From NCBI GenBank assembly GCA_934045075.1, contig OW203747.1, positions 7,894,357-7,958,356 on the forward strand: DNA of 64,000 nt. Reading direction: 5' to 3'. The notes under the pieces were generated by a model. That model had not been told where the DNA came from and ran no database searches. It saw only the letters and a list, made by a program, of their open reading frames with translations. Position 1 is the stretch's first letter; every line of letters starts with the position of its first letter. This stretch comes from Yponomeuta sedellus. Taxonomy: Eukaryota > Arthropoda > Insecta > Lepidoptera > Yponomeutidae. Below, piece after piece: positions 4,101 to 62,398 of this stretch. A program made the translations under genes and the position numbers.

Positions 4101-4420
4101 ATGTAATAAAGTCGAGATTCGAACTCCCTTTGTTTAAAACGTAACTTCATAGAAATAAGGGTCAATATCCCACCTGCACAACTAGTTCACTTCACCGCCG
4201 TAGCGCTGGGGTAGCTTATATTACTGAATGCGAATTCGATCGAACTCACTAGCGAACGGGGCTAGTGAATAGCACTGCAGGTCGTTGGTCGACCTTGGGT
4301 CGCGCTGTGGAATTAAGAAAGAGATTAGAGAGACGCAATAAAAATTTAAATAAAAGCTACGTACAGAACCGGTTCTGACCGGAATTACCTTGGAAAGTTT
4401 TGAATAATTGAAAAATATTG

Positions 4421-5412
4421 ATTACACTATTTTTATTTTTAATGCACTAACCCGTGCTAAGGAACAAATTTAAAAACCTATTTAGAGGCTAAAAATTTCA
4501 CCCATGCCGGGATTCGAACCCGCAACCTCTGGCTATCCGTACCAGCGCTCTACCAATTGAGCCAATGGGCGACTCACGGCATCAGTGAAATTTCGAACCT
4601 CTTTACAATATTCTCTGTATTACGTACAGGCAGCGACATCTGACTTCGGGGCTGTAAGTAATGCAATTTGCTTAAGTCAGATGTCGCTGCCTGTACGGGA
4701 CGGTACAATTACGTTAAGCTTGGAATACCATGAGGTTATGGTCTGCAGCAGGCGTCAACGGCTGATGATTGCAAGGATGATGATGAAGGGTAAAGGACTA
4801 CAACGTGAGGGAATGAGAGTGTGTGTTGCATTCGCATACTGTAGCTCTTGAAATCCCCAATCTATGGTGAGCACGTCGTTAAGGGAGAGAGAACTAAAAA
4901 TCATCCTATCTCTCTCTGAGATGATCTGTGCACTGCAGAAGGACTATTACGGTTGATTATATCACTCTATATTTAGTCCCTGGTCTTTGCCTACCCCTCT
5001 GGGATACAGGCGTGAGGTTATGTATGTATAAATGAGCACCTTACAGCCTTACACATCAATGGCTATTGAAAAATAAATGATTTATTATTTGTTGAATCAA
5101 TACATACAAATGTAAGTCAGTTTCTAATGATAAACAAATAAACAAAACTAAAAACTTTTTTTTTTATTTTGGCTGTAGTCTTTTCTCAAATGTTTTATTT
5201 GGGTCGTAAATAATAAACTTTATACTTAATGCAATAGTTTTGCCAAGAAAATAACATCTGCGTAAATACAGAGAATATTGTAAAGAGGTTCGAAATTTCA
5301 CTGATGCCGTGAGTCGCCCATTGGCTCAATTGGTAGAGCGCTGGTACGGATAGCCAGAGGTTGCGGGTTCGAATCCCGGCATGGGTGAAATTTTTAGCCT
5401 CTAAATAGGTTT
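4421..5412 (-). mobile_element. SINE-A insertion with inverted second arm, 13-bp target duplication
   Basis: Left arm (4421-4698) is SINE-A on the minus strand, A-rich tail outermost. Right arm (5262-5412) is SINE-A on the plus strand and stops abruptly at AAATAGGTTTTT without a tail. TTGAAAAATATTG is present at both 4408-4420 and 5413-5425, so both arms belong to one insertion. 4628-4698 folds back on itself with 23-bp arms (GTACAGGCAGCGACATCTG...). The interior (4700-5260) carries other repeat scraps, including a reversed CCTCACGCC/GGGGTAGGCAGAG end, a known companion of (TACA)n tracts. Confidence 0.8.
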
Positions 5413-6388
5413 TTGAAAAATATTGGTCAGTAGTTTTTAATGACTCGCATTGGTCTTACATAGTTAAACATAAAACGGTTCTAATAACGATTATTGATAC
5501 TGGATGAAATGTAATTATGTTAAATTCCCGTCTACCCGTGAGACCACCGTCTCGTAATGAGGCGTTTTCAAAAAAAAAAACTAGTTCCACAACACTTACT
5601 AGATGGCGTGAAAGTCACAAAAATTTATGTGTCAAATCAATCCGACAAAACATTTTTTGTAAAAAGGATGCCAAGACACAAGCTCATGATATGATATTAT
5701 TATGCGTACAGTTTAAAAAGTTATCAGAACTCATGATGAGCCAAGCCCCCAGTTCTACAAGGCACGCATTCATACAAGCCCTAACTCTATCAATGTTACA
5801 TAATTTTATTATAATTTTAATACCTTAGCATAATAATATGACTTGGCCCTTACGCGGCCGTCGCACAGACTCTCCTATGGTCTTAATTAAGGAAAGAAAT
5901 TGGGTATTGTAAAACGGCCATGTCCTATTTTTTACCATGATTAGTAAAACTAGGGCTTGTCTTGTCATCCTTTACATTAAATGTTTTTTTTTGGATTTTT
6001 TTTGTAGGATGGTTGGTTTATTCGGGCTGTGTAAAATCCCATACAAAAATGTTCGTCGACTTCTGATTTTTTCTAGTAATCTGACTTAATTTGGCCCCAT
6101 ACACTTTCTATCCCAATCAACAGCAAAATTAGATGGCATGATGTAGGATTGGTAATACGAAACACTTCAAGAAGACGTAGGTCATCTAAACAACTACATG
6201 GTCGCAATAAAGTTATGAATTATTAGTTAGTGCCATACTCATCTTCTGAGCGTCTTGGCGAGCACTCCCGTGCCCTTAGAAGAGTGCACAGACTAAGTAG
6301 GAGTAGGAGATACTGTGTTTGTATTAGCAAGTTTTTACTTTGGTTTCGATACTTGTAAATTAGGAAGTTTCTTTTTAGGAGTATAAAA
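5413..6388. other. Penelope-type scrap, then featureless DNA
   Basis: 5430-5545 weakly resembles the Penelope terminal repeat at 33684-34100 (TTTTTAATGACTCGC, AACGATTATTGAT). A 103-codon open frame at 5517-5828 is a chance read through this and was not accepted. Nothing else is recognised before the THAP exon. Confidence 0.4.
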
Positions 6389-6627
6389 ATGCGTACCTGT
6401 GCCGTTGTGACGTGCAAAAATACAGGAGTTCATACATTCCCCAGTACCAATGAAACCCTGAAGCGACACTGGATCAAAGCAACCAGAGTAGATGTAAATC
6501 GTAAAATTGGATGGAACATGCGTAAACATTCATGTATTTGTTCGGATCATTTCACCCCAAACGATTATTGGACACGTAAGTACGAATTTCTTCGTTAAGT
6601 TCGGTAAAATAAAAGTCACTTTTTCAG
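6389..6627 (+). CDS. THAP zinc-finger exon with splice donor
   Basis: The 62-codon exon encodes a C2CH THAP domain: C4-x4-C9, then C51-x2-H54 (CSDHF), with F17-P18 and W28 at the usual places. THAP domains bind DNA and occur in host regulators and in P-element-type transposases. The frame runs to CGT, and the C at 6575 is followed by a textbook donor GTAAGT at 6576. A pyrimidine-rich acceptor (CACTTTTTCAG) ends at 6627, giving a 52-bp intron, but the frame then stops within eight codons. The usual AVPTIF segment that closes a THAP domain was not found nearby. Either a more distant acceptor is used or this is a decayed transposase or gene. ATG is at 6389, directly after a TATAAAA-like string that is too close to act as its TATA box. 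Confidence 0.7.
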
Positions 6628-7590
6628 TATCAAGAGCAGAAAGGAAATGAAAAATCACAAAATGCAAACAGAACGGTCGACCAAAACAACACCTGCGTCA
6701 ATTTAAATACTCTTTGGCGTCAAGAAGCGTGCGGTCACAACCACAAATTAAATAAAAAATGCTACGTTGATGACAGAACTATTTTCGCCAACTAAAGCGC
6801 CATCTATTGAGTTTTTGTGTTATTAACTTTTTTTTTCTTCTGAAAACGGCTCATTGCAACGTTTCCAAACATCACACACACATAACACTTGTAAAATAGC
6901 AATAACTTTTTAAGTACACAAGATAAGACTTTCGAAATAAAAAGGATTCGAAAATACTTTAATTTTATTATTATCAATACGCTTATTGCACATAAGTATT
7001 AAAATACAATGGCAATGGGGCGGACTTAATGCTATAAGCATTTTCTACCAGTCAACCACAGGTGGTGCAAGAAATTAAATGGTAGGCATTCGAAACGAAC
7101 GGAAGAAGAAATATTAGTTAAAATTAGATTAGGACTAAAAGATTAGGACAAAACTCAATAAGTACATGTAAGGAAATAAATATACTTCATTTATACTTAT
7201 AATTTTGTGTAATAACTTTTCATAACTTCTTTTAGGACATGGCTAAAAAATAAAACCATTTTTTTTTTGAGTATTTTATTATGTCAACAAAATTAAATCT
7301 GTGGTGCTTAGTTTTGCAGGTCAGTGTATTAAAAATCGTGGACCAGCTTCTTCTTCTTCAATTGCCTCTTTATTCATATATAGTAAATAATTACTCACTA
7401 AAATGGACGAAGGTCTTTAAGTAAACTTACTGCAGAAATGCAAAAGGGACTACCCTTTCTTAATCCTATCCAAATATTGTAAAGATTAAATCTTCCACGG
7501 TACACACCTAATACTTAGGGCACACTTAGTAAACGTACAGAAGAGTATCTTTAGTTAGGTCGGTAATTTAAATAATGAAAATAATTAAGC
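6628..7590. other. AT-rich interval with a LINE-beta-like scrap
   Basis: 6960-7070 resembles a decayed LINE-beta 3' end on the minus strand (GGCGGACTTAATGCTATAAGC). Otherwise no recognised feature. Confidence 0.4.
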
Positions 7591-7882
7591 AAGCGCTGGT
7601 GGCCTAGTGGAACCGAGTGATTGAAATCCATCACTTTGATTAGTCAAGTGCTGGTTGGGTGACCATCCCGTAACTACTGCTAGTGGCATTTTTCCGAGTA
7701 GTTCCGTGCTTCGCATGGCACTAGCCGTTGGTGCCGACCATGTAATGGCCTTATGGGCGGCTTGATAACTTCTGACAGTAAGACCCGCCACTGTCTTCCA
7801 ATCCTCCACCAACCCGGACTTGGTCCCATGGTGGAGTATGGCCTAACTTTGCAGGAAGAGACCCGTGCCCCAAGTGTTGATT
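7591..7882 (+). mobile_element. SINE-B (5S rRNA-derived), decayed
   Basis: Starts AAGCGCTGGTGGCCTAG, keeps the box-C-like GGTTGGGTGACCATC, the central GGGCGGCTTGATAACTTC and the 3' part with GGTGGAGTATGGCC. Several short deletions; the final GGGGACATACAAGGG is lost. Confidence 0.85.
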
Positions 7883-8500: not shown

Positions 8501-8530
<30 letters not shown>

Positions 8531-8738
8531 CATACATACATACATACATACATACATACATACATACATACATACATACATACATACATACATACATACA
8601 TACATACATACATACATACATACATACATACATACATACATACATACATACATACATACATACATACATACATACATACATACATACATACATACATACA
8701 TACATACATACATACATACATACATACATACATACATA
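8501..8738. repeat. (TACA)n microsatellite, about 240 bp
   Basis: Near-perfect tetranucleotide array. Every reading frame through it is open, which produces spurious YVCM/TYIH proteins on both strands. Confidence 0.99.
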
Positions 8739-9059
8739 ATACTTACGCGCATACAAAGTTCCCGCACAACAGATTGAATTAACCTATGCATGGTTATTAT
8801 CAGATTAAATTTATATGAAGTAGTCTTTCTGTTACCTTGCGAGACATGAAGCGAACGCTTAGTAAGCTTGTTAAGCAAGTATTTAAGTGATTATGATGTA
8901 AACTTTGTCTATTCAAATCGTTGGACCCTTGGAGTCTTGACTGGGTGAAAGTTTCAGGATAAGCTTGCGCTTTAGGTGTATTTTTGTGAAGTTTTGAAAG
9001 GTTATACTTGTTGTTCAGAGATTCAAAGTTCGATTTGAGTCTTTTAAACCCTCAAATTT

Positions 9060-9426: not shown

Positions 9427-9609
9427 GTGTATGTATGTATGTATGTATGTATGTATGTATGTATGTATGTATGTATGTATGTATGTATGTATGTATGTAT
9501 GTATGTATGTATGTATGTATGTATGTATGTATGTATGTATGTATGTATGTATGTATGTATGTATGTATGTATGTATGTATGTATGTATGTACGTATGTAT
9601 GTATGTATG
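9427..9609. repeat. (GTAT)n microsatellite, about 180 bp
   Basis: Tetranucleotide array with one ACGT interruption near 9591; complementary in sense to the array at 8501, about 900 bp away. Confidence 0.98.
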
Positions 9610-10129
9610 AATGTTGACCCAATCGTCCTCTAAAAAAACGGTGAATCCAATCGAACCCTTTATTTGGGAGTAGCATTAGTTGCCATCTTAAATGGAACCT
9701 GATTACTTTGAATTAAGCTCCAAAACTAATGAATACCGTACATTAGTTTCGTTGGTTAGGGAGCAAAGGAACTATGTTGATTTAAAAAATAGTCACCTTC
9801 CTTTTATACGACCATTTTTTCCTCTCGCTGTTGTCAGAAGTGGGACGGGCAAATGCATCATTCCGTTAGATAAACTTTGAATAAACAGTTAAGGCTCTGT
9901 TTTGGGCCTCCGAGGCACACCCGAAATTACATATGCATTGGCAGATAAGTATCGGACAAAACGCTGACTTTGCCAGTCATTAGTTACTATGATTACAAAA
10001 GCCTATTCCGTTATAGGGATGGGATCTCATATCGGAACTGCACTGTCGAGAAATCGGAAGTTGAAAGTAAAATTAGAAATATATTTATTAAAATTGCCAT
10101 GATTTTTGCCAAGTGATATTAAAAAAAAC
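9610..10129. other. No recognised feature
   Basis: Moderately AT-rich. A 62-codon open frame at 9692-9880 has no motif I recognise. Confidence 0.4.
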
Positions 10130-10375
10130 CTGTTTAGGGGGTAAAAATTCCACCCATGCCGGGTCTCGAACCCGCGAGCTCTGGCTAACCGTGCCAGCGC
10201 TCTCCCAACTGAGCTAATGGGCGAATCACCGGCAATACTCTCTGTATTACGTACAGGCAGCAACATTTGGCTGAATTTATTTGCATCACTTGCAGCCCCG
10301 AGTACCTTACTTTGCAGTTAGGTTTTACATCGGAATGATATCGCTGTACCCACATGATTATATTCTTTTTTCTAA
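10130..10375 (-). mobile_element. SINE-A, near full length without tail
   Basis: Minus strand carries the 5' leader (TGTGGGTACAGCGATATCAT, GATGTAAAACC), then the tRNA-like core with A box TTAGCTCAGTTGGGAGAGC and B box GGTTCGAGACC, then a decayed AAACAGGTTTTTTTT end. The tRNA-like part sits about 150 bp inside the element rather than at its 5' end. Confidence 0.85.
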
Positions 10376-10559
10376 GTACGAACATACTTTGAAGTACGGC
10401 AAGTGCCAAAAATACACGGAGTGGGGCAAATTCAAATTGTCTCCGGCTCAGCGTGTGCTGGAGGGTTAGAGAACCTCCAGCGCCGGTATTATGACCTTCC
10501 ACTTCTTTCTACCTTCAGCCATCTTTGAGAGATCACGTCTTCTGACTGCTAATTAACAC

Positions 10560-11050: not shown

Positions 11051-11701
11051 TATACAGGGTGTCTCATTCAAATCGGTCAGTATGGGAAAGTCTGAAACTA
11101 TAAGACATACGAAGATCTGTTTTGAGGAACCATATCGTTGATTTTAATAACAAGAAAAACTGCATTCATACATTTTGAAAAACATCTGTACTCCGTTCGA
11201 GAATCGAACCCGGTTGTTTTGAAAAAAAAATCTACATTATTTCTATTCAGATATCGATTGTGTAGGTCTTAGGCAGTAAATGTCTGCATAAAACATGATA
11301 TCTAAAATGAATAAAATGCATAGTTTTCATACAAAGTGCAATCGTAAGATCGTTACCTAAACGTTTTGAATATTGTATTGAAAAAGTCGGAGGTCACTTC
11401 GGGCACCTACTAAAGTAAATTAAAGTAACAATGCATTTTATTCATTTTAGACATCCTGTTTCATACAAACATTTACTGCTTAAGACCTACACAATCGATA
11501 TCTAAATATAAATAGTGTAGAGTTTTTTTTCATAACAACTGGGTTCGATTCCCGAAAAGAGTACAGATGTTTTTTAAAACGTATGAATGCAGTTTTTCTT
11601 GTTATCAAAATCGATGACATGGTTCTTCAGAACAGATCTTCGTATGTCTCATAGTTTCAGACTTTCCCATACTGACCGATTTGAATGAGACACCCTGTAT
11701 A
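11051..11701. mobile_element. Foldback element / MITE with long inverted arms, TA duplication
   Basis: Left end TATACAGGGTGTCTCATTC and right end GAATGAGACACCCTGTATA are exact reverse complements. The arms continue for about 280 bp each with moderate divergence (shared CATACGAAGATCTGTTTTGA, CAATCGATATCTGAA-like blocks). A unique centre lies near 11335-11400. TA flanks both ends, as for Tc1/mariner-type transposition. A tRNA B-box-like string sits in each arm near 11190 and 11545. No transposase. Confidence 0.85.
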
Positions 11702-14056: not shown

Positions 14057-14249
14057 TGTTGGAGTATAGAGTTGCGCAGACGATGTGGAAGCTATTAGCT
14101 GAAGGATTAAACGTTTATTTCGAATTAAACAGACTTTTATTTGCAACAACAATATTAAGTTACTATTTTATAACAGATTCGTTTTGACATAAAGAGTAAG
14201 TAAGATCTGTTTCCCCCCTACTTTTTTTGTGTATAGACAGGGATCTGCG
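14057..14249 (-). repeat. Inverted LTR end fused to inverted pol fragment
   Basis: 14057-14193 matches the reverse complement of 16877-17013; 14186-14249 matches the reverse complement of 15757-15819. The two sources share GACATAAA at the junction (14186-14193), an 8-bp microhomology typical of template switching. The second junction, at 14249/14250, shows no extra bases. Confidence 0.93.
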
Positions 14250-14272
14250 CTAGTTTCCAATCGTTCGACAAG

Positions 14273-15787
14273 ATGCACACCGTCCTTACAGCCAATGGTA
14301 ACGCATTACAAGCCAAAGGAAAAGGGAATATCGTCATCAAATCGGAAGTACGAGGAAAAGAATACGAGATCACCCTGATTGACGTATGGTACGTGCCACA
14401 GATCACGAAGAACCTGTTTTCTGTCCTAGCTGCTCATGATAACAACTCAATAAGCAAGTTTGAGTCGACACCAACGAGCTGCACCATGTCAACACGTGGT
14501 GAGGTAAAGCTGACAGGTGTACGCAGCCTGAGCGGAGGCTTATACAAGCTGAATGTCAAAAGCGTCATTCCCAAAATAAGTTTGGAAGTGAATTTAACTC
14601 TTTCGAAGACTCAGCTGTACCACGAGCGACTTGTACATCAGAATACACGTCATGTACGAACATTTGTGAAACGAGAGTTGGGAGTAGAACTTCCTCAAGA
14701 TGAATATATCTGTGAAAGCTGTATATTTGGTAAGTCACATCGTTTGAAGTTTGGTACCCGACCTAGAGCTTCAAAACCTGGCGAACTTGTACACAGCGAT
14801 GTATGCGGACCGTTTCCTAACTCATTTACAAATTTACGCTATTTCCTGCTGTTTAAAGATGACTTCACCGGCTATCGTTTTGTTTACTTTCTGAAAGCCA
14901 AGTCAGAAGTGAAACAGAAAATGCAAGAATTCATCGCCGAAGCACGAAATACAGGTCATCTTATCGAAACACTCCTAAGTGACAATGAAGGCGAGTTTGA
15001 CAACAAGGAAGTGCGTGAGATCCTCGCCGCACTTGGAATCAAACAAAGGCTGACAATGCCGTATACTCCCGAGCAAAACGGCTCCAGCGAGAGAGAAAAT
15101 AGGACCTTGGTAGAAGCTGTAAGGATTATTATGCTCAGCGGAAGTTTCGATCAAAAGCTTTGGGCCGAGTTAGTTAATGCGGCTGCCTACGTTCTCAACA
15201 GAACCGGTCCGAACCGAAAAGAAGAAGCTGAACCCACTACGTTCAAGGAAGCTATGAAGAGCCCACATAAAGACGAGTGGATAAAAGTTATGTTGAAGGA
15301 GTTAGATTCTTTGAAAGAGAATAACACGTGGTCTCTTCAAGAACTACCTCAAGATAGAAAAGCCATTCCGTGCAAATGGGTTTTTAAGATAAAGAGAAAT
15401 CCTGATGGCTCTATCGACAAATATAAAGCGAGATTGGTTGCGAAAGGTTTCAAACAACGCAAAGGAATCGACTACAAGGAAACATACAGTCCAGTAGCCA
15501 GATTTGCAACCATACAATCACTGTTAAGTGTTGCTGCAAGTGAAAGGATGTACCTCACACAGTTCGACGTGACTACAGCCTTTCTCCACGGTGAACTCGA
15601 GGAAGAGTTGTATATGCAGCAACCCGAAGGTTTTCACGACGGCTCTACCCGCGTATGTCGTCTGAACCGAAGCCTATACGGTCTGAAGCAAGCGCCCCGC
15701 TGTTGGAATCATAGTGTCCACAAAGTACTAGTTGAACTCGGATTCACACAAAGTACCGCAGATCCCTGTCTATACACAAAAAAGTAG
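14273..15787 (+). pseudogene. pol: Copia pol, part 1: protease end, integrase, first half of reverse transcriptase
   Basis: The frame is open from about 14252. It starts just after the protease active site (LTANGN...AKGKGNI region), then shows the integrase zinc finger (YHERLVHQ ... CESC), and the integrase DDE residues in HSDVCGP, LLSDNEGEF and EQNGSSEREN. Right after YVLNRTGP the sequence jumps to TTFKEAMKSPHKDEW, so the roughly 150-250 residues usually found between integrase core and reverse transcriptase are missing, in frame. The RT fingers follow (KWVFKIKRN, ARLVAKGF, FDVTTAFLHGEL, SLYGLKQAPRCW). The frame ends at 15787 because an A run has six bases where the inverted copy at 14222-14228 has seven; the catalytic YVDD box lies just beyond, in another frame. 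Confidence 0.93.
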
Positions 15788-15831
15788 GGGGGAAACAGAT
15801 CTTACTTACTCTTTATGTCGACGACGGATTA

Positions 15832-16041
15832 GTGGCTGCTTCAGATAAACAGCTGGCTGATGAATTTTTAGAGAGCCTTAAAAGAAAATTTAATATAACG
15901 ACGAGGCCCGCTTCCTATTACTTAGGAATAGAAATCATCCAGTGCGAAGATGGCACGATTGTTATACACCAGGAAGCTTATACCAAGAAGGTGCTTGAAC
16001 GTTTTAACATGGCCAACAGTAATCCTATTTCACACCAATAG
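15832..16041 (+). pseudogene. pol: Copia pol, part 2: reverse transcriptase thumb
   Basis: Continues the polyprotein in the next frame after the one-base loss at 15778-15783. The YVDD codons sit just upstream at 15813-15824 in this frame. Residues ADEFLESLKRKF and YYLGIEI are standard Copia text after the active site. The frame ends after SNPIS at 16039, where a second single-base loss shifts it again. Confidence 0.9.
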
Positions 16042-16079
16042 ACGCTGCAGAAAAATCGTCTGCAACACAATCGGATGTA

Positions 16080-16769
16080 GTGTTCGATACTGGGAAGATT
16101 ATTTTTCCCTATCGTGAAGCCGTTGGAGCGTTAGCATACCTTATGGTCGCAACCCGCCCTGATATCGCCTACGCAGTCGAGATAGTATCACGTAACTTGG
16201 AGAAGCCCAACAGAAGTGACTGGAATCGAGTCAAACGTATACTTCGGTATCTAAAGGGAACTACGTCTCTTGGAATACATTATAAATGTAAGACTCATGA
16301 AAAGCCAGATCTGGAAGGCTACAGCGATGCCGATTATGGTGGTGATATTACCGCCGGAAGATCAACCACCGGAATCGTATGCCGATATGCAGGAGGTCCA
16401 ATATCGTGGACAAGTAGAAGACAAACTTCAGTAGCACTGTCTACTACTGAAGCTGAACTTGTGGCTGCTAGTGAAGGAGCCAGAGAGTTAGTTTGGCTGA
16501 CGAGAATCTTTGAAGATTTAACGAGGAATAAGAGTATTCCCAATCTTCACGTTGATAACGAAACAGCAGTTCGATTGGCACACAACTCTGAGTTCCACAA
16601 ACGAACGAAGCACATACGCATTCGACATTTCTACGTACGAGAACTTGTAACATACGGAGCTATCTTCGTTAAGAGAATTGGAACCAGAGATCAAGTCGCA
16701 GACATCATGACCAAAGGTCTGCCGAAGCCTACCTTTGAGAAGATGAGGTCTGCACTAGCCTTGTTTTAG
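16080..16769 (+). pseudogene. pol: Copia pol, part 3: connection and RNase H
   Basis: Third frame of the same polyprotein. It contains YREAVGALAYLMVATRPDI, then the RNase H domain with its acidic residues in GYSDADYGGD, STTEAELVAAS and HVDNETAV, and the usual Copia end (THIRIRHFYVRELV, ADIMTKGLPK). The stop at 16767-16769 is followed by a short GAGGGCG purine tract and then the LTR. Intact apart from the upstream frameshifts. Confidence 0.93.
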
Positions 16770-16775: not shown

Positions 16776-17013
16776 TGTTGAAGGAGGCTGCAAACCAAGG
16801 CAGTACGACCTGCATGGATGTTGACCATAAAGTGTCATCATGTCTATGTGTTGCTTAGCAACATTGTTTGAAAATGTTTATGTCAAAACGAATCTGTTTT
16901 AGAATAGTAACTTAATATTGTTGTTGCAAATAAAAGTCTGTTTAATTCGAAATAAACGTTTAATCCTTCAGCTAATAGCTTCCACATCGTCTGCGCAACT
17001 CTATACTCCAACA
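16776..17013 (+). repeat. Copia 3' LTR, 238 bp
   Basis: TGTTGAAGGAGGC ... TACTCCAACA with TG/CA ends and a 5-bp inverted terminus TGTTG/CAACA. AATAAA at 16928 lies inside the LTR and could serve as poly(A) signal. Confidence 0.92.
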
Positions 17014-17235
17014 GTTATCAAGCCGCCCATAAGGCCTCTGACATGGCTGAACGATTGCCATTACATGACAGCCGGCACCTACGGCTTAACATGCCTTGCA
17101 AAGCACGGAAGCGTTCGAAAAAATGCCACTAGCGGTAGTCACGGGACGGTCACCCACCGCGCCTGCTGTTGCCTAAATCAAGTGATTGATTCCAATCACT
17201 CGGTTCAACTAGGCCACGAGCGCCTCCTAATTTAT

Positions 17236-17492
17236 CCTTCTTCTTCAGGCTATATTAGTCCACTGCTGGACATAGCCCTCCCCTAATGAGTGCAAGGTTG
17301 TGCCATCATTGAGGGGTAATGCCCATAATCCCCACGCTGGGCATGCGGGTTGGGGATCGCAGTTTGGTGGAATTGTACTGCAGGGGGCGCTGCAGCCCAC
17401 CACCCGGTTTGTATCCCTTAGTCGCCTTTAACGACACCCGCGGGAAGAAATTGGTTTGGTGCTATTCTCTAGGCCGACACCACACAGCCTTA
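17236..17492 (-). mobile_element. SINE-C copy 1
   Basis: Tail CTTCTTCTTCAGGCTATATT on the left, then CCCACGCTGGGCATGCGGG, the GGGGGCGCTGC block, ACGACACCCGCGGGAAGAA, ending GGCCGACACCACAC. The tail half is shared with LINE-alpha. No clear A/B boxes. Confidence 0.9.
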
Positions 17493-17844
17493 TTCCTAAT
17501 TTACGAATTCAAAATAAAATTTCATCGAAGATACTAAAGATATCCCTTGCGGACCACAAGCAAAGACAGCCCCTATAATATCAATAGGATGGGTAATTCG
17601 AAAGCAAAATGAAATTCCCGCTTGGCATTCCACGAAAAGTCCCCAATTGAACATCGGAAAAAGCCCCAAAACATCGCGTTGCTCCTAAACAAATTAAAAA
17701 GTCAAAGGGTGGGCTGTGACAGACGCCTAATTAGGAGGAATTTGTTGAACGACGCGGGTTGAACATGCCTTTAGGATGTTCGGCCGCGTTTACTTTCATT
17801 CTGAGGCCTCGTTTTTATTAAAATTTTATGTGGCAATATACAAA
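17493..17844. other. No recognised feature
   Basis: Plain intergenic-looking DNA. Confidence 0.4.
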
Positions 17845-18192
17845 GCAGCGCTCGTTCCCTTATCGAACCGAGTTATTGAATAACAGGCGCGGTCAGATAC
17901 TGGATAGGTGCCATCCCGAGACTATCGCTAGTGACCTCTTTTCCAAGCGCTTCCGTGCTTTGCAAGGCACGTCATGCCCAAGGCCCTTGGTACCAGCTGT
18001 CATGTAATGGCAGTCGTTAAGCCATGTCAGAGGCCTTATGGGCGGCTTCATAACTTTCGATAACCGCCACTGCCTTACACTCGTCCACCGACCCGGGCTT
18101 GACCCCCGTGGTGGAGTATGGCCAAACTTTCCTGCGATGGAGGAAAAGACCCGTGCCCTAGTAGTGGGGACATACAAGGGTTGATATCGATA
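17845..18192 (+). mobile_element. SINE-B (5S rRNA-derived)
   Basis: 5' end decayed (CAGCGCTCGTTCCCTTATCG) with part of the 5S region deleted; central and 3' parts intact to GGGGACATACAAGGGTTGAT. Confidence 0.9.
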
Positions 18193-19888: not shown

Positions 19889-20172
19889 GGGTGCAAGTTT
19901 GAGGTTTCTCAACCTTTAAATTTAGCAGAACACTACAGTAGATAACTTATACTTTTTTGCAGACATAAAAATCGCACAGAGAGCACAAAATTATAAATTA
20001 AGATAAAAGTGTACATGGCAAGCTTATTCCATTAGAAATATCTTTCAGCCAACCCTTGTTGTGAGGTAACGGTGTGTAGAAATTTTGCTATAAATAAATG
20101 TATTTCTTCTTGTTATGAAGACGCTTTTTTGAACCTGACACACAAATCAAACCATAAGATAAGAATATTCTT

Positions 20173-20369
20173 CATCTAAAAACCTATTTAGAGGCTAAAA
20201 ATTTCACCCATGCCGGGATTCGAAACCGCAACCTCTGGCTATCCGTGCCTGGCACGTATAGCCAGAGGTTGCAGGTTCGAATCCCGGCATGGGTGAAATT
20301 TTTAGCCTCTAAATAGGTTTTTAAATTTGTCCTTAGCACGGGTTAGTGCATTAAAAATAAAAATAATAT
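20173..20369 (+). mobile_element. SINE-A insertion with inverted 5' arm, target duplication AATATTCTT
   Basis: 20178-20322 is a near-perfect hairpin of about 70-bp arms: SINE-A from AAATAGGTTTTT to its tRNA-like core on the minus strand, then the same stretch on the plus strand, followed by the normal tail (CCTTAGCACGGGTTAGTG, A-rich). AATATTCTT occurs at 20164-20172 and 20370-20378. The target was an older LINE-beta end. Confidence 0.85.
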
Positions 20370-20706
20370 AATATTCTTTATTGTATACCGGAAAAATAGT
20401 TACAGAAACGCCATGGTGACAGAACTATACGTTTTTTGGAATAAATATGAAGTTTTCAGGCGTGGTTTGAGTCGACGGGAACACACCACATATCCCTTTA
20501 CATTTTTGAGATCTTTATCTAATGAGGGTCAAGCAGATATGAGAACCCGCGCCTTTTGATACTTCATTTCGGACGAAAGTAACTCTGTGATCATGCTGAT
20601 TTACTTAACATTATGCCACAATGCATTATTTTGTTCAGAGTTGGTATGAGAAATTGCTCCAAGCAATAAGGCCGCCAATTGTACTGTATCTTTATAATTA
20701 TTATTG
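20370..20706. mobile_element. LINE-beta remnants around a featureless core
   Basis: 20370-20400 (TATTCTTTATTGTATACCGG) continues the interrupted minus-strand LINE-beta. 20652-20690 (CCAAGCAATAAGGCCGCC) is another piece, plus strand. Between them nothing recognised. Confidence 0.55.
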
Positions 20707-20862
20707 TAAGAGTATTCTAAAGAGATTCGAAATTTCGCTGATGCCGAAACTTGCCCAGTAGCTCAGTTGTGAGAGCGCTGGCACGGTTAGCCAGAGGTCG
20801 CGGGTTTGAGTTCCGGCATGAGTGGAATTTTTAGTCTCTAAATAGATTTTCTAAAACGTTAT
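20707..20862 (+). mobile_element. SINE-A, 5' truncated, decayed
   Basis: AGAGTATTCTAAAGAG, then A box GTAGCTCAGTTGTGAGAGC, B-box GGTTTGAGTTCC, and TTTTTAGTCTCTAAATAG. Confidence 0.82.
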
Positions 20863-23958: not shown

Positions 23959-23975
23959 GTCGGCAAATGTATAAG

Positions 23976-24034
23976 CCTCTAAATAGGTCTTTAAAATTGT
24001 CCTTAGCACGGGTTAGTGCATTGAAAAGAATATG
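23976..24034 (+). mobile_element. Minimal SINE-A insertion (59 bp) with 11-bp target duplication
   Basis: Only CCTCTAAATAGG to the A-rich tail is present. AAATGTATAAG flanks it at 23965-23975 and 24035-24045. This copy fixes the true 3' end of the family. Confidence 0.88.
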
Positions 24035-24184
24035 AAATGTATAAGGGTTAAGTATAATCAATATTTTTTAAATAACGTATGGATAATTAAAGTGCTTACG
24101 ATATAGGCACTAGGTCTTAGCGAAGCAGAGGAAGTTGGGGACCTATTTTGGTTGACAACCTGATATCTTGCAAAATGAATACAT

Positions 24185-24609
24185 GCACCGGCACCAACGG
24201 CTTAACATGCCTCGCGAAGCACGGAAGCGCTCGGAAAAATGCCACTAGCGGCAGTCACAGGATGATCACCCACCCAGCACCTGACCGCGTCTGTTGTTGC
24301 TTAACCCTAGTGATTGATTCTAATCACTCGGTTCCACTAGGTCGCGATCGCTAGTAGAATTTTTCCGTGCGCTTCCGTGCTTCGCAAGGCACGTTAAGCC
24401 GTTGGTGCCGGCTGTCATGTAATAGCAGTCGTTAAGCCATGTCAGAGGCCTCATGGCGGCTTGATAACTTCTGACAGTAAGGCCCGCCACTGTCTTACAA
24501 TCCTCCACCAACCCGGACTTGGCCCCCGTGGTGGAGTATGGCCTAACCTTCCTGCCATGCAGGAAGAGACCTTTGCCCCAGCAGGGGGACATACAAGGGT
24601 TGCTATCGA
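24185..24609. mobile_element. Two SINE-B halves in inverted order
   Basis: 24185-24351 is a 5' half on the minus strand; 24352-24609 is a 3' half on the plus strand, starting TAGTAGAATTTTTCCG. Both contain the CTTCGC(A)AGGCACG stretch, so the pair folds back. Like a snap-back insertion or two recombined copies. Confidence 0.85.
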
Positions 24610-27004: not shown

Positions 27005-27270
27005 CATCATGTGGGTACAGCGATATCATTCCGATGTAAAACCTTACTGCAAAGCAAGGTAGGTACTCGGACTTGCTAGCGATGAAAATTACGTCAGCCA
27101 GATATCGCTGCCTGTACGTACAAAGAGTGTTGTAAGAGGTTCGAAATTCCACTGATGCCGTTAGTCGCCCATTGGCTCAGTTGGAAGAGCGCTGGCACGG
27201 TTAGCTAGAGGTCGCGGGTTCGAGTCCCGGCATGGGTGGTATCTTTAGCCTCTAAATAGTTTTTTAAATA
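27005..27270 (+). mobile_element. SINE-A, near full length
   Basis: 5' leader CATGTGGGTACAGCGATATC, centre ATATCGCTGCCTGTACGTAC, then A box TTGGCTCAGTTGGAAGAGC and B box GGTTCGAGTCC, ending TTTAGCCTCTAAATAG without the distal tail. Confidence 0.88.
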
Positions 27271-29185: not shown

Positions 29186-29222
29186 AAACATCTTCACAAA
29201 ATCACATTCATAATTATATTAT

Positions 29223-29352
29223 TTTTAATGCACTAACCCGTGCTAAGGACATATAAAAAAAACCTATTTAGAAGCTAAAAATTCCACCCATGCCGGAACT
29301 CGAACCCGCAACCTCTGGCTAACCGTGCCAGCGCTCTCCCAACTAAGCTATA
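29223..29352 (-). mobile_element. SINE-A, 5' truncated
   Basis: A-rich tail and GCACTAACCCGTGCTAAGG on the left, then the reversed core down to the A box at 29340. Confidence 0.85.
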
Positions 29353-36012: not shown

Positions 36013-36087
36013 AGTCAAGTTATTTGAATTTTTAAGTACCTAAATAAATGGACTATAAATTTGCAATCAATAATAGTGTAATATAAT

Positions 36088-36388
36088 AGTGTAATCATGT
36101 GGGTACAGTGATATCGTTCCGATGTTAAACCTAACTGCAAAGTAGGTAGTCGGGGCTGTAAGTAATGCAATTTGCTTAAGTCAGATGTCGCTGCCTGTAC
36201 GTAATACAGAGAATATTGTAAAGAGGTTCGAAATTTCACTGATGCCGTGAGTCGCCCATTGGCTCAATTGGTAGAGCGCTGGTACGGATAGCCAGAGGTT
36301 CCGGGTTCGAATCCCGGCATGGGTGAAATTTTTAGCCTCTAAATAGGTTTTTAAATTTGTTCCTTAGCACGGGTTAGTGCATTAAAAA
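36088..36388 (+). mobile_element. SINE-A, most complete simple copy
   Basis: Leader TGTGGGTACAGTGATATCG, GTCGGGGCTGTAAGTAATGC, TCAGATGTCGCTGCCTGTAC, GAATATTGTAAAGAGG, A box TTGGCTCAATTGGTAGAGC, B box GGTTCGAATCC, TTTTTAGCCTCTAAATAGG, CCTTAGCACGGGTTAGTGC and A-rich end. The reference copy for the family. Confidence 0.93.
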
Positions 36389-36699
36389 GAATTTAATCAC
36401 TTCCATTTTACATCTAAATTATAGGTATATATTAAACCTGATTTCGGAATATTCGTCACAGCATTCCTGATGGCGCATTTCAAGACATATCGCAAAACTC
36501 GTAACCACGCCAGAAAGTCCACGAAAATACTCTAAAAGTCCAGATGTACTTAGTAAAACCTTATTTTTCAACAAAGCCACTCGGTGATACATAAATAAAA
36601 GCAAAAGTTTTCTTCACATCTGACGACACGACAACGATAAGGTAATAATACATTCAATGTAGAATTATAGTAGCCAGAGTCGCTCAGCGACCTATGTAT
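36389..36699. other. No recognised feature
   Basis: No repeat or coding signal recognised. Confidence 0.4.
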
Positions 36700-39953: not shown

Positions 39954-40096
39954 GAATATACTATTTTTATTTTTAATGCACTAACCCGTGCTAAGGACAA
40001 ATTTAAAAACCTATTTAGAGACTAAAATGTTCACCCATGCCGGGATTCGAACCCGCAACCTCTGGCTATCCCCGTATCACTCATCACTTACAGCCC
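39954..40096 (-). mobile_element. SINE-A, internally deleted, with target duplication
   Basis: Tail on the left; core to CTGGCTATCC, then a jump to the leader (CACTTACAGCCCCGAC). CGACTTAA occurs at 39946-39953 and 40097-40104, although the right repeat overlaps element text. Confidence 0.8.
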
Positions 40097-40104
40097 CGAC
40101 TTAA

Positions 40105-40914
40105 TATTTTTTTTATTGTATTAACCGTTTGTCATCTTGCGTATGCTCTACTCTGCCCAGTTGTATGTTTTATTTATGTGAGTACGAGTAACTTTTTCCT
40201 TATTTATGACAATGTATGTTATGCCTTTTCCTTCCTCGTTATCTGTCTTTCTTTCATTCTTCTCTCATTTCTTTACTTCGGTTCTGGATAACATAGGGTA
40301 ACTAAATTGATAAAACTTGAATTATTACCAGGCTGATTTTTTACATGAAAAATAACAGACAATTTTCTTGCAATTATGAGCCTGAGGTAGTTGAACACCT
40401 CAGAGTCTCAGGTTTCCTCAGGATTATTTCCTTCACCCCATTGCAACTTCCTCAGCGCTTGATTGGCAATCTGCGGTGGGCACGCGTGGTTACGAAGCCC
40501 ATACTCCCTCTGTCTGAAAGAAAGTGCGTAAGAAAGCTACTTAAAAAATGATAAGTATTTTTTGCATAGTGGGCATAACACCCTGTATAAGTTACATAAA
40601 AAAATTTAATATATCACATCTATCTTTACCAGTATCATTTTTATTTCAGGAACGTCCACGCTGCAAATAATTGCTTGGGACAGCTGGAGCCAGCGACATA
40701 GCGGATGTAATTAGCTGGAAAGTAACTGGGGTGCTACTCTGAATCTCTCCGCCACACTTTTATGTATTTTTTTTATATGCAGACACAACCATAAAAGGCA
40801 CAAGCTTATCTCTCTGAGAGAGATTTTGCCAAGGGACGTTATGTAAAAAAACTAAATTGTGCATATTATTTCTTGTTATTGAGAAATTATAATAATCTAA
40901 ACAAAAAGTATAAG
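40105..40914. other. SINE-D scrap in otherwise featureless DNA
   Basis: 40378-40540 contains CCTGAGGTAGTTGAACACCTC and GTGGGCACGCGTGGTTACG, out of normal order, so recombined. CACCCTGTATAAG at 40581 resembles one terminus of the foldback at 11051. Confidence 0.45.
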
Positions 40915-41247
40915 AACCTATTTAGAGGCTAAAAATTCCACCCATGCCGGGACTCGAACCCACGACCTCTGGCTAACTGTGCCAGCGCTCTCCCAACTGA
41001 GCTGATGGGCGACTTACCGGCATCAGTGAAATTTTGAACCTCTTTACAATAATACTCTCTGTATTACGTACATGCTGAAGTAATTTGCATCACTTGCAGT
41101 CCCGAGTACCTACTTTGCAGTTAGGTTTTATATCGGAATGATATCACTGTACCTACATGACTATATTCATGGGTGGAATTTTTAGCTCTAAATAGGTTTT
41201 TTAAATTGTCCTTAACACGGGTTGGTGCATTAAAAAGAATATAAAAT
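40915..41247. mobile_element. SINE-A insertion with inverted long arm, target duplication GTATAAG
   Basis: 40915-41170 is a nearly complete SINE-A on the minus strand, starting at AACCTATTTAGAGG. At 41171 it switches to plus strand (GGGTGGAATTTTTAGC) and runs to the normal A-rich tail. GTATAAG flanks at 40908-40914 and 41248-41254. Confidence 0.85.
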
Positions 41248-41351
41248 GTATAAGGTAAAAACATATTTATTGCACCATTAAAAAGTGTGCAGATGGCGGA
41301 CTCAGTACTGAATAGTATTTTACTCTTAGCCTAAATAGTATTTTACTGCTT

Positions 41352-51091: not shown

Positions 51092-51103
51092 ATTTATAAC
51101 ATA

Positions 51104-51224
51104 TTGTAAAAAACCTATTTAGAGGCTAAAAGTTCCAACCATGCTGGGACTCGAACCCGCGAAATCTGGCTAACCGTGCCAGAAGATTGTTCTTAGCACC
51201 GGTTAGTGCAATAAAAATAATATA
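51104..51224 (+). mobile_element. SINE-A insertion with inverted arm, 12-bp target duplication
   Basis: 51110-51182 is SINE-A core on the minus strand, beginning AAAAACCTATTTAGAGG; then plus-strand TTGTTCTTAGCACCGGTTAG and an A-rich tail. ATTTATAACATA flanks at 51092-51103 and 51225-51236. Confidence 0.88.
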
Positions 51225-51231
51225 ATTTATA

Positions 51232-51436
51232 ACATAACATTTACATACAGGCACATGCATTGCTTCTGGGCCCACACTAGGATACCTTGTGTCATGTGAA
51301 CCAGAAACAGCGCCATCACAAACACGTAAACATCCAAGATTGGATTGGATTGTTTTTTGTTGTCACCAGGTTGGGTACGAACCCGGGATCTCTCGCATGG
51401 TAGGCAGATGCGCTGCTGCTGCGTCACAGAGGTCGT
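51232..51436 (-). mobile_element. SINE-E, nearly full length
   Basis: Tail ATAACATTTACATACAGG on the left, AACACGTAAACATCCAAG, B box region GGGTACGAACCCGGG, head CTCTGTGACGCAGCAGC on the minus strand. Confidence 0.85.
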
Positions 51437-51552
51437 CAAATTTTATCAAAATGTTATATAGCAGTAGGCTTAATGATGATTCTACGTCGTGCAATGAGTA
51501 ACAGTCTACCTACTTGAAAATCTCACTAACACATGATGGTGATTTATCTCAA

Positions 51553-51730
51553 AACCTATTTAAAGGGTAAAAACTCCACCCATGCCGGGACTCGAACCCG
51601 CGACCTCTTGCTAACCGTGCCAGCGCTCTCCCAACTGATTCGCTTAGTTGGGAGAGCGCTCGCGACTCACCGGCATCAGCGAAATTTCGAAACTCTTTCC
51701 AATACTCTCTGTATTACTTACAGGCAGCGA
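51553..51730 (-). mobile_element. SINE-A with a 15-bp local hairpin in the A box
   Basis: Reversed core CCCATGCCGGGACTCGAACC. At 51622-51660 AGCGCTCTCCCAACT, a 9-nt loop and its exact complement replace the A-box region. Confidence 0.85.
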
Positions 51731-53860: not shown

Positions 53861-54072
53861 ACGATGTCTACCCTTGTACGTCCCTACTACTGGGGCACAG
53901 GTCTCTTTCTGCATCAGAGGTCGCGGGTTCGAATCCCGGCATGGGTCAAATTTATAGCCTCTAAATAGGTTTTTAAAATTGTCCTTATCACGGGTTAGTG
54001 CATTAAAAATAAAAATAGTAAAATCAAGTGATTGATTCCAATCACTCGGTTCGGCTAGGCCACGAGCGTTTC
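53861..54072 (-). mobile_element. SINE-B copy interrupted by SINE-A
   Basis: 53861-53915 is the reversed SINE-B 3' end (CCCTTGTACGTCCCTACTAC); 54025-54072 is its 5' end (AAGTGATTGATTCCAATCAC). The middle of the SINE-B is missing, so deletion accompanied the insertion or a later event. Confidence 0.82.
53916..54024 (+). mobile_element. SINE-A, 5' truncated, inside SINE-B
   Basis: AGAGGTCGCGGGTTCGAATC to CACGGGTTAGTGCATTAAAA with A-rich end. Confidence 0.88.
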
Positions 54073-55239: not shown

Positions 55240-55247
55240 TTGTACTT

Positions 55248-55469
55248 AATTTTAAAAGACCTATTTAGAGGCTAAAAAGTCCACCCGTCCCGGGATTCGA
55301 ACCCGCGACCTCTGGCTATCCGGGCCAGCGCTCTTTCCAACTGAGCTAATGGGCGACTCACCGGCATCAGTGAAATTTCGAACCTCTTTACAATATTCTC
55401 TGTATTACGTAATAGGTCTTTTAAAATTGCCCTTAGCACGGGTTAGTGCATTTAAAAAAAGAATATAAT
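55248..55469 (+). mobile_element. SINE-A insertion with inverted arm and target duplication
   Basis: 55255-55410 is SINE-A on the minus strand from GACCTATTTAGAGGC to the leader; at 55411 it becomes plus strand (AATAGGTCTTTTAAAATTGC) and ends CACGGGTTAGTGCATTT plus A-rich tail. TTGTACTT lies at 55240-55247 and 55470-55477, with imperfect extension. Confidence 0.82.
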
Positions 55470-55529
55470 TTGTACTTCATTCTTAAGAATTACTTACTCC
55501 TGCAAAATGAAATTAAAAGGTTATATTCA

Positions 55530-57033: not shown

Positions 57034-57272
57034 TGAGATGTACATACATCTTACATACATACATATATACATACATACATACATACATACATACATACAT
57101 ACATACATACATACATACATACATACATACATACATACATACATACATACATACATACATACATACATACATACATACATACATACATACATACATACAT
57201 ACATACATACATACATACATACATACATACATACATACATACATACATACATACATACATACATACATACAT
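57034..57272. repeat. (TACA)n microsatellite, about 230 bp
   Basis: Tetranucleotide array with early imperfections. It joins AACCTCACGCCTTTATCCC at 57273, the companion sequence also seen reversed at 4990-5025. Confidence 0.98.
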
Positions 57273-57411
57273 AACCTCACGCCTTTATCCCAGAGGGGTA
57301 GGCAGAGACCAAGGACTACCACTTGCCACGATCCTGCCAAATCAACTTCGCTTTATCGACTTTCGTAAGTCATTGCAGTGGACTACATAATATAGCCTGA
57401 AGAAGAATAAG
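57273..57411 (+). mobile_element. Microsatellite-associated repeat plus LINE-alpha tail
   Basis: CCTCACGCCTTTATCCCAG, GGGTAGGCAGAGACCAAGG, CTTGCCACGATCCTGCC form a dispersed companion of (TACA)n. 57375-57411 is a LINE-alpha/SINE-C tail (GTGGACTACATAATATAGCC). Confidence 0.65.
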
Positions 57412-59568: not shown

Positions 59569-59922
59569 ACGATAGCAACCCTTGTATGTCCCCACTGCTG
59601 GGTCACGGGTCTCTTCCTGCATCGCAGCAAGGTAAGGCCATACTCCATAATGGGAGCCAAGTCCGGGTTCGTGGAAGATTGTACGGGCTTTACTGTCAGA
59701 AGTTATCAAGCCGCCCATGAGGCCTCTGACATGACTTAACGACTGCCATTACATGACAGCCAGCACCGATGGCTTAGCGTGCCTTGCAAAGCATGGAAAC
59801 GCTCGGAAAAATGCCACTAGCGGTAGCGGGGTCACCCATACTGCACTCGACCGCGCCTGTTGTTGATTAACTCAAGTGATTGATTGCAATCACTCGGTTC
59901 GACTAGGGCACGAGCGCTTCAC
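59569..59922 (-). mobile_element. SINE-B (5S rRNA-derived), full length
   Basis: CGATAGCAACCCTTGTATGT to GGGCACGAGCGCTTC; small deletions in the 5S region. Confidence 0.93.
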
Positions 59923-60330
59923 TACTTGATGATTTGAAACATATTAATCCACGGGAGGAGCTTGAAGGGCTATACGTAGTAAATATTATAAGACATGCTA
60001 AAAATAAAAGCAGGTAAAGCAGGCTTTTCGAAGGCTCTGGAAAAGAATTACCGCTAAGACCCGTTGCGAACACAAAAGGTTGTGGTCACTGTACAAAAGC
60101 AATTCGCAAAAGGATTTCGGCTATCCCACTTTCTTGCGGCTCTGCTCTTATATGTGAAAAGAAATTATTGTGTTACAATCTCTGGATTGTACACAGAAAT
60201 ATACTCACATTTGTACCGTCCACACGGGTATTATCCACAACGAATGACCTATAAGCTGACTGACTGGAATCAATTTAATAATAACATCCACAAAACACTT
60301 TGATTAATTTCATTTAGATATTGTTTGACA
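59923..60330. other. No recognised feature
   Basis: GAAGGGCTATACGT-GTAAATA-TATA at 59526 recurs at 59963, flanking the SINE-B. A 79-codon frame at 60064-60303 is unrecognised. Confidence 0.4.
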
Positions 60331-60693
60331 TCGCTCGTAGCCTCGGCTGTCTGAGTGATTAAACGATCACGAAGGTTAAGCAACACAGGGCGCGATCAGT
60401 GCATGGATAGGTAAATCATCCATGACTAAGGCTAGTGCCATTTTTCCCGGCAATTCCGTGCTTCCCAAGGCACGCTAAGCAGTTGGTTCCGGCTGCAGTC
60501 CTGGCAGTCGTTAAGCCAAGTCAGAGGCCTAAGGGCGGCTTGAAAACTTCTGACAGTAAGACTAGCCACTAGTCTTGCAAGCTTCCAACAATCCGGACTT
60601 GGTCCCCGTGGTCTAGTATGGCCTATACCTTCCTCAGGGAAGAGACCCGTGCCCCTCGGTGGGGACATAGTGGGTTGATGATGACTATGATGA
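60331..60693 (+). mobile_element. SINE-B type II, full length; clearest 5S similarity
   Basis: TCGCTCGTAGCCTCGGCTG, then GATCACGAAGGTTAAGCAAC, AGGGCGCGATCAGTGCATGG and ATAGGTAAATCATCC track the internal control region of insect 5S rRNA. Tail GGGTTGATGATGACTATGATG. Confidence 0.92.
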
Positions 60694-61321: not shown

Positions 61322-61524
61322 CCTAGTGGAACCGAGTGATTGTAGTCTTTCATCCATGTCTGAGACATGGGCGGCTTGATAACTTCTGACAGTAAGGTTC
61401 GCCACTGTCTTGCAATCCTCCACCAACCCAGACTTGGCCCCCGGGGTGGAGTATGGCCTAACCTTCCTGCGATTCAAGAAAAGACCCGTGCCCCAGAAGT
61501 GGGTACGTACAAAAGGGTGATATC
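61322..61524 (+). mobile_element. SINE-B with large internal deletion
   Basis: CTAGTGGAACCGAGTGATTG jumps after about 25 bp to GGGCGGCTTGATAACTTC and continues to the 3' end. Confidence 0.85.
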
Positions 61525-61898
61525 AAACCTCAATATCTTTTTTTTTCTTTTGATCAGTACTAAGTCTATTGGCGGGTGGGGACAGAGCTCATACAATTTA
61601 CTGCATGGTCCTTCAATATTGCCCGGGACATAATTAAAAAATCCCACTATTCCCGGGAGCACCGTGGCGCAGTTTGCTCATATAAAATTAAGTTTATAAT
61701 TAATTCATTACTACAGCACACTACAGTACTGGCGAGTACCGGATACACGTAGTGGTCATAGACTAAAGAATTACAGAAAGGGGAGGTGACGGCTGAGAAT
61801 AGACTGGTGTATCCAGCGTCGAAGTGCTGTAGTAGTAAAAAAAAAAAGATAAACAACACTATCTGCTTAACACATTACGTCACCACATCAAAAAACAC
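61525..61898. other. No recognised feature
   Basis: No repeat or coding signal recognised. Confidence 0.4.
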
Positions 61899-61901
61899 TA
61901 A

Positions 61902-62039
61902 CCCCCTTATTCATAATAGTATGTTAACTTTAAGCAATGCTTATTCTCACTCTGTCCTCTTCTATTGACCTAAGTCAGAATGAAAGAGAACACTCTTTAG
62001 CAGCTGTTTTAAGCTAGCGGACTATTATGAATAAGGGGG
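61902..62039. mobile_element. PIF/Harbinger-type MITE, 138 bp, TAA duplication
   Basis: CCCCCTTATTCATAATAGT and its inverse ACTATTATGAATAAGGGGG bound the element. TAA at 61899-61901 and 62040-62042 fits the 3-bp TWA target preference of PIF/Harbinger elements. Confidence 0.85.
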
Positions 62040-62044
62040 TAATA

Positions 62045-62398
62045 TTATAAAGGCAAAAGTTCGTGAGTGTATATGTTTGTTACTTTTTCACGTCTAATCA
62101 TTTGGAGCGATTTAAATAAAATTTAGTATACACTATTTTTATTTTTAATGCACTAACCCGTGCTAAGGAACAAATTTAAAAACCTATTTAGAGGCTAAAC
62201 ATTTCAATTGGTAGAGCGCTGGAACGGATAGCCAGAGGTTGCGGGTTCGAATCCCGGCATGGGTGAAATTTTTAGCCTCTAAATAGGTTTTTAAAATTTA
62301 GTATAGTTAGTTGACACCCTGGATAAACACATAGGCTACGTTTTACTGCGGAAAAATTGATTAACCGCGGGTGACACCGCGGGGCACAGCTAGTAATA
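62045..62398 (+). mobile_element. RTE-type dispersed repeat split by SINE-A
   Basis: TATAAAGGCAAAAGTTCGTG, GTATATGTTTGTTAC at the left; ACACATAGGCTACG and GCGGGGCACAGCTAGTAAT at the right. Interrupted by 62131-62292 plus one copy of the target repeat. Confidence 0.75.
62131..62292 (-). mobile_element. SINE-A insertion with inverted arm, 13-bp target duplication
   Basis: A-rich tail and 3' part on the minus strand (to 62204), then plus-strand core from CAATTGGTAGAGCGCTGG to AAATAGGTTTTT at 62292. AAAATTTAGTATA flanks at 62118-62130 and 62293-62305. The end overlaps the target by the shared TTAAAATTT-like text. Confidence 0.9.

Follow-up and report, generated by a model that had tools for sequence, protein, structure and literature searches.

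A tRNA-containing SINE with recurrent inversions at one internal site in a 64-kb window of Yponomeuta sedellus

Introduction

Twin priming by the machinery of long interspersed elements (LINEs), which inverts the 5′ part of a new copy, is the closest described counterpart of the structures reported here: six two-armed copies (i1 to i6) of a tRNA-containing short interspersed element (SINE) in 64,000 nucleotides of the lepidopteran Yponomeuta sedellus (contig OW203747.1, positions 7,894,357 to 7,958,356), the whole of which we call the window. According to the excerpts of the cited papers on which our statements about the literature rest throughout, twin priming was found in 18.4% of germline and 21.9% of somatic L1 insertions, with inversion breakpoints spread over the 3′ end of L1 and forming peaks there (PMC12016303), and another survey found inversion in 30.9% of L1 (PMC2912911). 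A cell-culture comparison of three LINEs gave inversions only with human L1 in human cells, plus one Nimb-2_DR insert (PMC4245944), and a further paper names twin priming for LINE-1 only (PMC12458276). Among human Alu insertions, inversion was seen in one of 5936 germline and, as cited there, 1 of 130 somatic cases (PMC12016303); a table of 5554 holds one inverted Alu, and 4 of 477 SVA insertions were inverted (PMC2912911).

The copies in the window resemble 5′ inversions of L1 in that a duplication surrounds the whole unit, the tail lies on the non-inverted side, the inverted part appears internally primed, and the inner joint shows little homology; they differ in the shortness of the SINE, a single second start in all six cases, larger arm overlaps in i1 and i2, and weak pairing at the second start. 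With 5′-inverted Alu they share a SINE whose 5′ part is inverted, whereas the frequency (6 of 16 here) is different. Chimeras of U5, U1, and U2 small nuclear RNA (snRNA) with L1 are similar in that a small structured RNA is copied from the top-strand end, and four U5 cases that start in one single-stranded region come closest to a precedent for the recurrence of the second start; there, however, the RNA is no retroposon and became linked to a different element, while both arms here belong to the same SINE (PMC4476161). The lepidopteran tRNA SINEs HaSE1, HaSE2, and PxSE1-3 likewise combine a tRNA-related part, target duplications, and 5′ truncation, with a LINE-like 3′ end in HaSE1; in HaSE1 and PxSE1 the tRNA-like part is at the 5′ end, whereas it lies about 160 nt in here, and the likeness is one of description, not of sequence (PMC3272025, PMC8010984). 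The excerpts of these two papers make no mention of inverted copies.

No recurrently inverted SINE is described among the matches listed in the open-licence literature, as judged by titles and abstract openings, or in the excerpts of PMC13295347 and PMC2718515. A literature search with sequence stretches returned only a mantis mitogenome paper, taken as a chance match by its title, and an exact-pattern scan of viral contigs gave 0 matches. What is known is thus twin priming; what is new is a frequent SINE version of it with a fixed second start, on the basis of one 64-kb window.

Results

SINE copies were gathered by searching the window with a single SINE arm as the BLAST query (E ≤ 1e-3), and each was mapped onto the full-length copy c36184, whose coordinates serve as frame positions; a 23-bp fragment at 612-634 was excluded from all copy counts. 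This yielded 16 usable copies of one SINE of about 305 nt, 11 with a 3′ tail (six inverted and five non-inverted) and five tailless. An inverted second arm is therefore present in 6 of 16 copies overall and in 6 of the 11 tailed ones, which in this window is unusually frequent, as the initial annotation had claimed, when compared with the single inverted cases among 5936 and among 5554 human Alu insertions. The element opens with about 160 nt of 5′ sequence, followed by a tRNA-like part; the linker TAAATAGGTTTTTAAATTT connects the latter to the tail, in which a small hairpin (GCAC GGGTTA GTGC) is followed by an A/T-rich end. The tRNA-like part scores above the Rfam gathering threshold for tRNA at 7 places (best, 44.2 bits) and is called at 6 by ARAGORN. 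Dispersed short copies, 5′ truncation, and target duplications characterize the 16 copies as a tRNA-derived SINE; in the longest ones, some 160 nt come before the tRNA-like part, so that it does not occupy the 5′ end, from which it would drive transcription.

The inversions are confirmed: all six structures sit where they had been annotated, with boundaries that we rechecked (Table 1). The tail is always on the non-inverted (sense) arm, adjoining one duplication, and the inverted arm begins inside the element and runs in the direction of the RNA 5′ end. Sense-arm starts differ among i1 to i6 (approximately frame 87, 188, 227, 266, 251, and 233, respectively), and the arms have 0-3 nt in common, by eye, at the inner joint.

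The opposite ends of the inverted arms are nearly constant. Read by eye from alignments and allowing for duplication ambiguity, these outer ends lie at frame 259-261 (i1), 261-262 (i2), 257-258 (i3), 261-262 (i4), 261-267 (i5), and 260-261 (i6), so that the recurrent internal site proposed earlier is borne out, with six of six ends within frame 257-267, at or no more than 6 nt from the GGTTTTT run (the T-run) just upstream of the tail. None of 2,000,000 simulated sets of six uniform draws was equally tight, and P was 1.2e-4 when the draws were limited to 50 A/T-rich positions. The exact terminal motif that had been assigned to these arms stands in five of the six and fails in i3, whose arm reads AAATAGGTTCTT. 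An equal run of five T's 19 nt upstream (frame 238-242) was used by none of the six inverted arms and by none of the five tailless ends. No inverted arm starts elsewhere among the 16 copies; the sole other reversed piece is a stretch of about 15 nt within the tRNA-like part of t51730 (51551-51730).

Target duplications of 7-14 bp flank the two-armed unit, outside both arms, in all six copies, in agreement with the initial annotation. They read CAATATTTTTC in i1 (plus AA common to duplication and arm), AATATTCTT(C/T)AT in i2, GTATAAG or 12 bp with one mismatch in i3, ATTTATAACATA in i4, TTGTACTT or 12 bp with one mismatch in i5, and TATACTAAATTTTA in i6. For the six, P was 0.0017-0.01 in an ungapped test against 3000 random window pairs and 0.006-0.027 in a gapped test with 4000 random pairs. 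When the gapped test was set against 240 pairs made by mixing the flanking sequences of the copies, P was ≤ 0.0042 for i1, i4, i5, and i6, where the duplications are clear; those of i2 and i3 are weaker, since P was only 0.05 and 0.075, respectively, and the best gapped alignment of i3 differs from its proposed duplication.

Duplications were also sought around the other copies. That of c23974 has a P of 0.0125 (gapped, after its boundaries were moved), and that of c40071 has a P of 0.022 ungapped and was not recovered in the gapped test with moved boundaries; the only alignment found for c36184 lies away from the copy ends. Among the tailless copies, t51730 has the only credible duplication, directly at the T-run end (P 0.0125), and t10124 gave P 0.08-0.09. 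Ungapped and gapped flank tests found none in c29348, c53915, t2207, t20709, and t27101. Of the 8 tailed copies whose duplication could be read, 6 have a C directly before it when the longer i3 version is taken (P 0.0015), and 5 do so with the 7-bp version (P 0.012); this was read by eye and noticed after the fact, and it hints at one endonuclease preference.

Inner junctions and duplications differ in all six inverted copies, and the SINE bodies, grouped by eye on diagnostic positions, are of old (i3 and i4), intermediate (i5), and young (i1, i2, and i6) types. Because junctions, duplications, and subfamilies all differ, the six are separate insertions and not copies of a master. The arms of one copy carry the same variants, such as GGTCTTTTAAAATT in both i5 arms, and over their common stretch they are identical at 148/148 positions in i1, 68/71 in i2, 31/32 in i3, 18/18 in i5, and 31/32 in i6; the i4 arms have no real overlap. 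The identity over 148 nt marks the i1 insertion as recent. The 563 bp that interrupt the inverted arm of i1 are partly repetitive, since 56 bp of them recur at 57263-57318; no clear duplication was seen at the ends of this interruption.

The five tailless copies stop at frame 260-265, at or near the T-run. Their flanks beyond this point, compared by eye, have no sequence in common with one another, and the T-run therefore looks like their real end; decay of an old tail may apply to t51730 and t10124, in which the following sequence is, by eye, faintly tail-like.

Pairing of the target ends with the SINE RNA was scored with a simple in-house 3′-anchored measure over 265 positions, with the site taken as frame 256-267. 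With the bases common to target and arm left off, the site ranked 12, 90, 1, 7, 30, and 1 in i1 to i6 (i6 tied with two sites), and with the common bases kept on the target end it ranked 6, 29, 5, 7, 14, and 2; it was thus the best position in two of six targets (one tied) on the short reading and in none of six on the long one. Random A/T-rich ends placed it first in 18% of cases, with a median rank of 6. The target ends themselves are A/T-rich and not specifically A-rich. Since real targets score no better than random A/T-rich ends, pairing does not seem to pick the site, and the suggestion that A-rich second-strand ends anneal to the T-run is not supported and was rejected as the full reason, the more so as the upstream T run is unused.

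In predicted folds, the tRNA-like part is enclosed by a stem of as many as 16 pairs, whose base lies immediately before the linker; the upstream T run falls within this stem, and the used T-run falls just outside it. Mean unpaired values for the used T-run were 0.35 (c36184), 0.40 (i1), and 0.63 (i2), and those for the unused run were 0.22, 0.22, and 0.44, respectively; the i2 arm is without the upstream strand of the stem. A check of 16 hand-chosen pairs in eight rows, two of them the i1 arms, gives the stem modest support, with one compensatory change (in c20709), three cells with non-standard pairs, and seven gapped cells (five from the shortened c51730 row).

Table 1. Positions in the window of the parts of the six two-armed insertions and of the other SINE copies
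Feature	Position	Strand	Remarks
i1 target duplication, tail side	4410..4420		GAAAAATATTG
i1 sense arm with tail	4421..4646	-	frame 87 to tail end
i1 inverted arm, inner piece	4646..4697	+	frame 59-110
Other sequence interrupting i1 inverted arm	4698..5260		563 bp
i1 inverted arm, outer piece	5261..5414	+	ends in T-run
i1 target duplication, far side	5415..5425		
i2 target duplication	20164..20175		AATATTCTTCAT; other copy 20370-20381, one mismatch; then 2 extra nt
i2 inverted arm	20178..20248	-	
i2 sense arm with tail	20249..20371	+	
i3 target duplication	40908..40914		GTATAAG; other copy 41248-41254
i3 inverted arm	40915..41166	-	extends to element 5′ end
i3 sense arm with tail	41168..41245	+	from frame 227
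i4 target duplication	51092..51103		ATTTATAACATA; other copy 51225-51236
i4 inverted arm	51108..51182	-	4 extra nt before, 51104-51107
i4 sense arm	51183..51224	+	tail region only
i5 target duplication	55240..55247		TTGTACTT; other copy 55470-55477
i5 inverted arm	55248..55411	-	6 nt past T-run (frame 267)
i5 sense arm with tail	55409..55467	+	from ~frame 251
i6 target duplication, tail side	62117..62130		other copy 62292-62305
i6 sense arm with tail	62131..62207	-	from frame 233
i6 inverted arm	62204..62292	+	
c36184	36092..36398	+	full-length, tailed, not inverted; coordinate frame; tRNA-like part 36254-36325
c23974	23965..24036	+	tailed, not inverted
c29348	29211..29348	-	tailed, not inverted
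c40071	39955..40107	-	tailed, not inverted; internal deletion
c53915	53915..54020	+	tailed, not inverted
t2207	2207..2282	+	tailless, stops at T-run
t10124	10124..10360	-	tailless, stops at T-run
t20709 (c20709)	20709..20855	+	tailless, stops at T-run
t27101	27006..27269	+	tailless, stops at T-run
t51730	51551..51730	-	tailless, stops at T-run; decayed target duplication

In three copies, tail-like sequence adjoins the 5′ end of the SINE on its outer side (in SINE sense, AATAGTGTAAT at 36070-36095, AAAAAAGAATATAAT at 10361-10376, and AATATAGT at 41155-41168), which would suit either an end-to-end reading of RNAs or a true 5′ end located further out. The separate insertions c23974 and i3 both run on into AAATGTATAAGG (24035-24046 and 41244-41255), which represents either a longer tail or a common target preference. 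Beyond the SINE copies and the 23-bp fragment, BLAST with the SINE arm matched nothing in the window, and no LINE with the same tail was found there.

As a control, inverted repeats were scanned across the window; among 25 of 131 pairs, 24 were one microsatellite pair in different registers. In a BLAST control of 18 inverted pairs, three were i1, i3, and i6 and three were pairs between neighboring SINE copies; the remaining pairs include 59585-60669, 33684-34098, 17013-18055, and 24180-24421. The longest pair of the inverted-repeat control among the matches listed is a fold-back DNA element at 11051-11701, with 275-nt arms (91% complementary) and DNA transposon-like TATACAGGGTGTCTCA ends, and without the SINE tail. 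The window also holds a Copia-type polyprotein in two separate frames (14237-16769), the first with RVT_2, rve, Pol_BBD, and gag_pre-integrs and the second with no Pfam match, and, about 700 bp from each other, two long arrays of the tetranucleotides TACA and TGTA, oppositely oriented (8501-8746 and 9428-9614).

Discussion

The anatomy of the six copies suggests, and we hold with modest confidence, that each copy arose from its own retroposition event, in which a LINE enzyme worked as in twin priming and the second start fell at the same fixed place in a tailed SINE RNA. A twin priming-like origin, as first proposed in the initial annotation, fits the duplications outside both arms, the tail on the non-inverted side, and an inverted arm that starts inside the element and extends in the RNA 5′ direction. 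A nick in the bottom strand would prime first-strand complementary DNA (cDNA) at the tail of the SINE RNA, consistent with the constant position of the tail beside one duplication. Cleavage of the top strand 7-14 bp away would free a 3′ end that starts a second cDNA, always within the same short A/U-rich linker of the tailed RNA (frame ~257-267), which joins the tail hairpin to the foot of the stem that carries the tRNA-like part. The second cDNA, whose anatomy is seen in the inverted arms and whose RNA template and enzyme are presumed, would be copied toward the RNA 5′ end, and joining of the two cDNAs with 0-3 nt in common would leave head-to-head arms inside one target duplication.

Several points weigh against this reading. 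The six events come from one 64-kb window and were picked because the pattern was noticed, so that the apparent inversion rate is inflated. The arms overlap by about 175 nt in i1, whose inverted arm spans frame 261-59 with the 563-bp interruption left out, and by 71 nt in i2, with which one RNA copied once would be insufficient without strand displacement or a second RNA; overlap is absent in i4 and amounts to 18-32 nt in i3, i5, and i6, and the median in L1 is 12 nt (PMC12016303). Target ends pair with the site no better than random A/T-rich ends do, whereas about 70% of L1 inversions carry microhomology of 2-5 bp (PMC2912911). The T-run is only moderately open in the predicted folds. The site is probably set by the position of the linker relative to the tail-bound enzyme and the upstream stem, not by target pairing; the linker between stem and tail hairpin would then be what the second target end can reach.

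The main rival concerns the template, for which we lean toward the tailed RNA. The top-strand end might instead begin, with scarcely any pairing or none, at the 3′ terminus of another SINE RNA, one that finishes at the U-run as if ended by a terminator of RNA polymerase III (Pol III); the site would then simply be an RNA end. We regard this as possible but doubtful. It accounts for the weak pairing, the long overlaps of i1 (about 175 nt) and i2 (71 nt), and the extra nucleotides in i2 and i4, and snRNAs have been reported as a second template for L1 (PMC4476161). The five tailless copies, all of which stop at frame 260-265, suggest that RNAs stopping at the T-run may exist, and the t51730 duplication directly at that end (P 0.0125) is consistent with this. 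However, Pol III would meet the equal T run at frame 238-242 first, where no end was found in the six inverted arms and five tailless copies, and we reject plain Pol III termination as the full cause of the site. About 160 nt precede the tRNA-like part in this SINE, and an internal tRNA promoter would not transcribe sequence upstream of it. Finally, the inverted arm of i5 continues past the T-run for 6 nt that agree with the sense arm of this copy, and the i5 template RNA therefore ran on toward the tail; this favors the tailed RNA as template if the duplication is the 8-bp version and does so more weakly with the 12-bp, one-mismatch version.

The remaining alternatives to twin priming on a tailed RNA fare worse. 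The near-palindrome of i2, with almost no loop (68/71 identical), is what would be expected if the 3′ end of the first cDNA snapped back and copied itself into a hairpin, with the outer end marking where copying stopped; self-copying cannot give the inverted arms of i3, i4, i5, and i6, which hold SINE sequence absent from the sense arm, so that this route is ruled out for four of six copies and very unlikely as a general explanation. A tailed SINE landing within or beside an opposite tailless one draws on the existence of tailless copies, yet nesting predicts a duplication around one arm only, and with duplications outside both arms in six of six we reject this as still less credible. An inverted master copied as a unit, the outcome that the initial annotation had named as contrary to its view, would explain the constant outer end and is scarcely believable, being refuted in this window by six different inner junctions and duplications on bodies from old to young.

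The second half of insertion by LINE machinery is a poorly understood process, and twin priming of human Alu is very rare (PMC12016303, PMC2912911). We advance tentatively, as a possibility short of probable, that the RNA of this SINE has a built-in second start, that two-ended insertions are a regular product of its partner LINE, that more than one-third of new copies are inverted repeats able to form hairpins, and that RNA-enzyme geometry sets the site without target pairing. If true, a SINE family that often inverts at one site would provide a natural assay for the placement of the second start, and it would give a steady supply of new inverted repeats and, possibly, of hairpin RNA.

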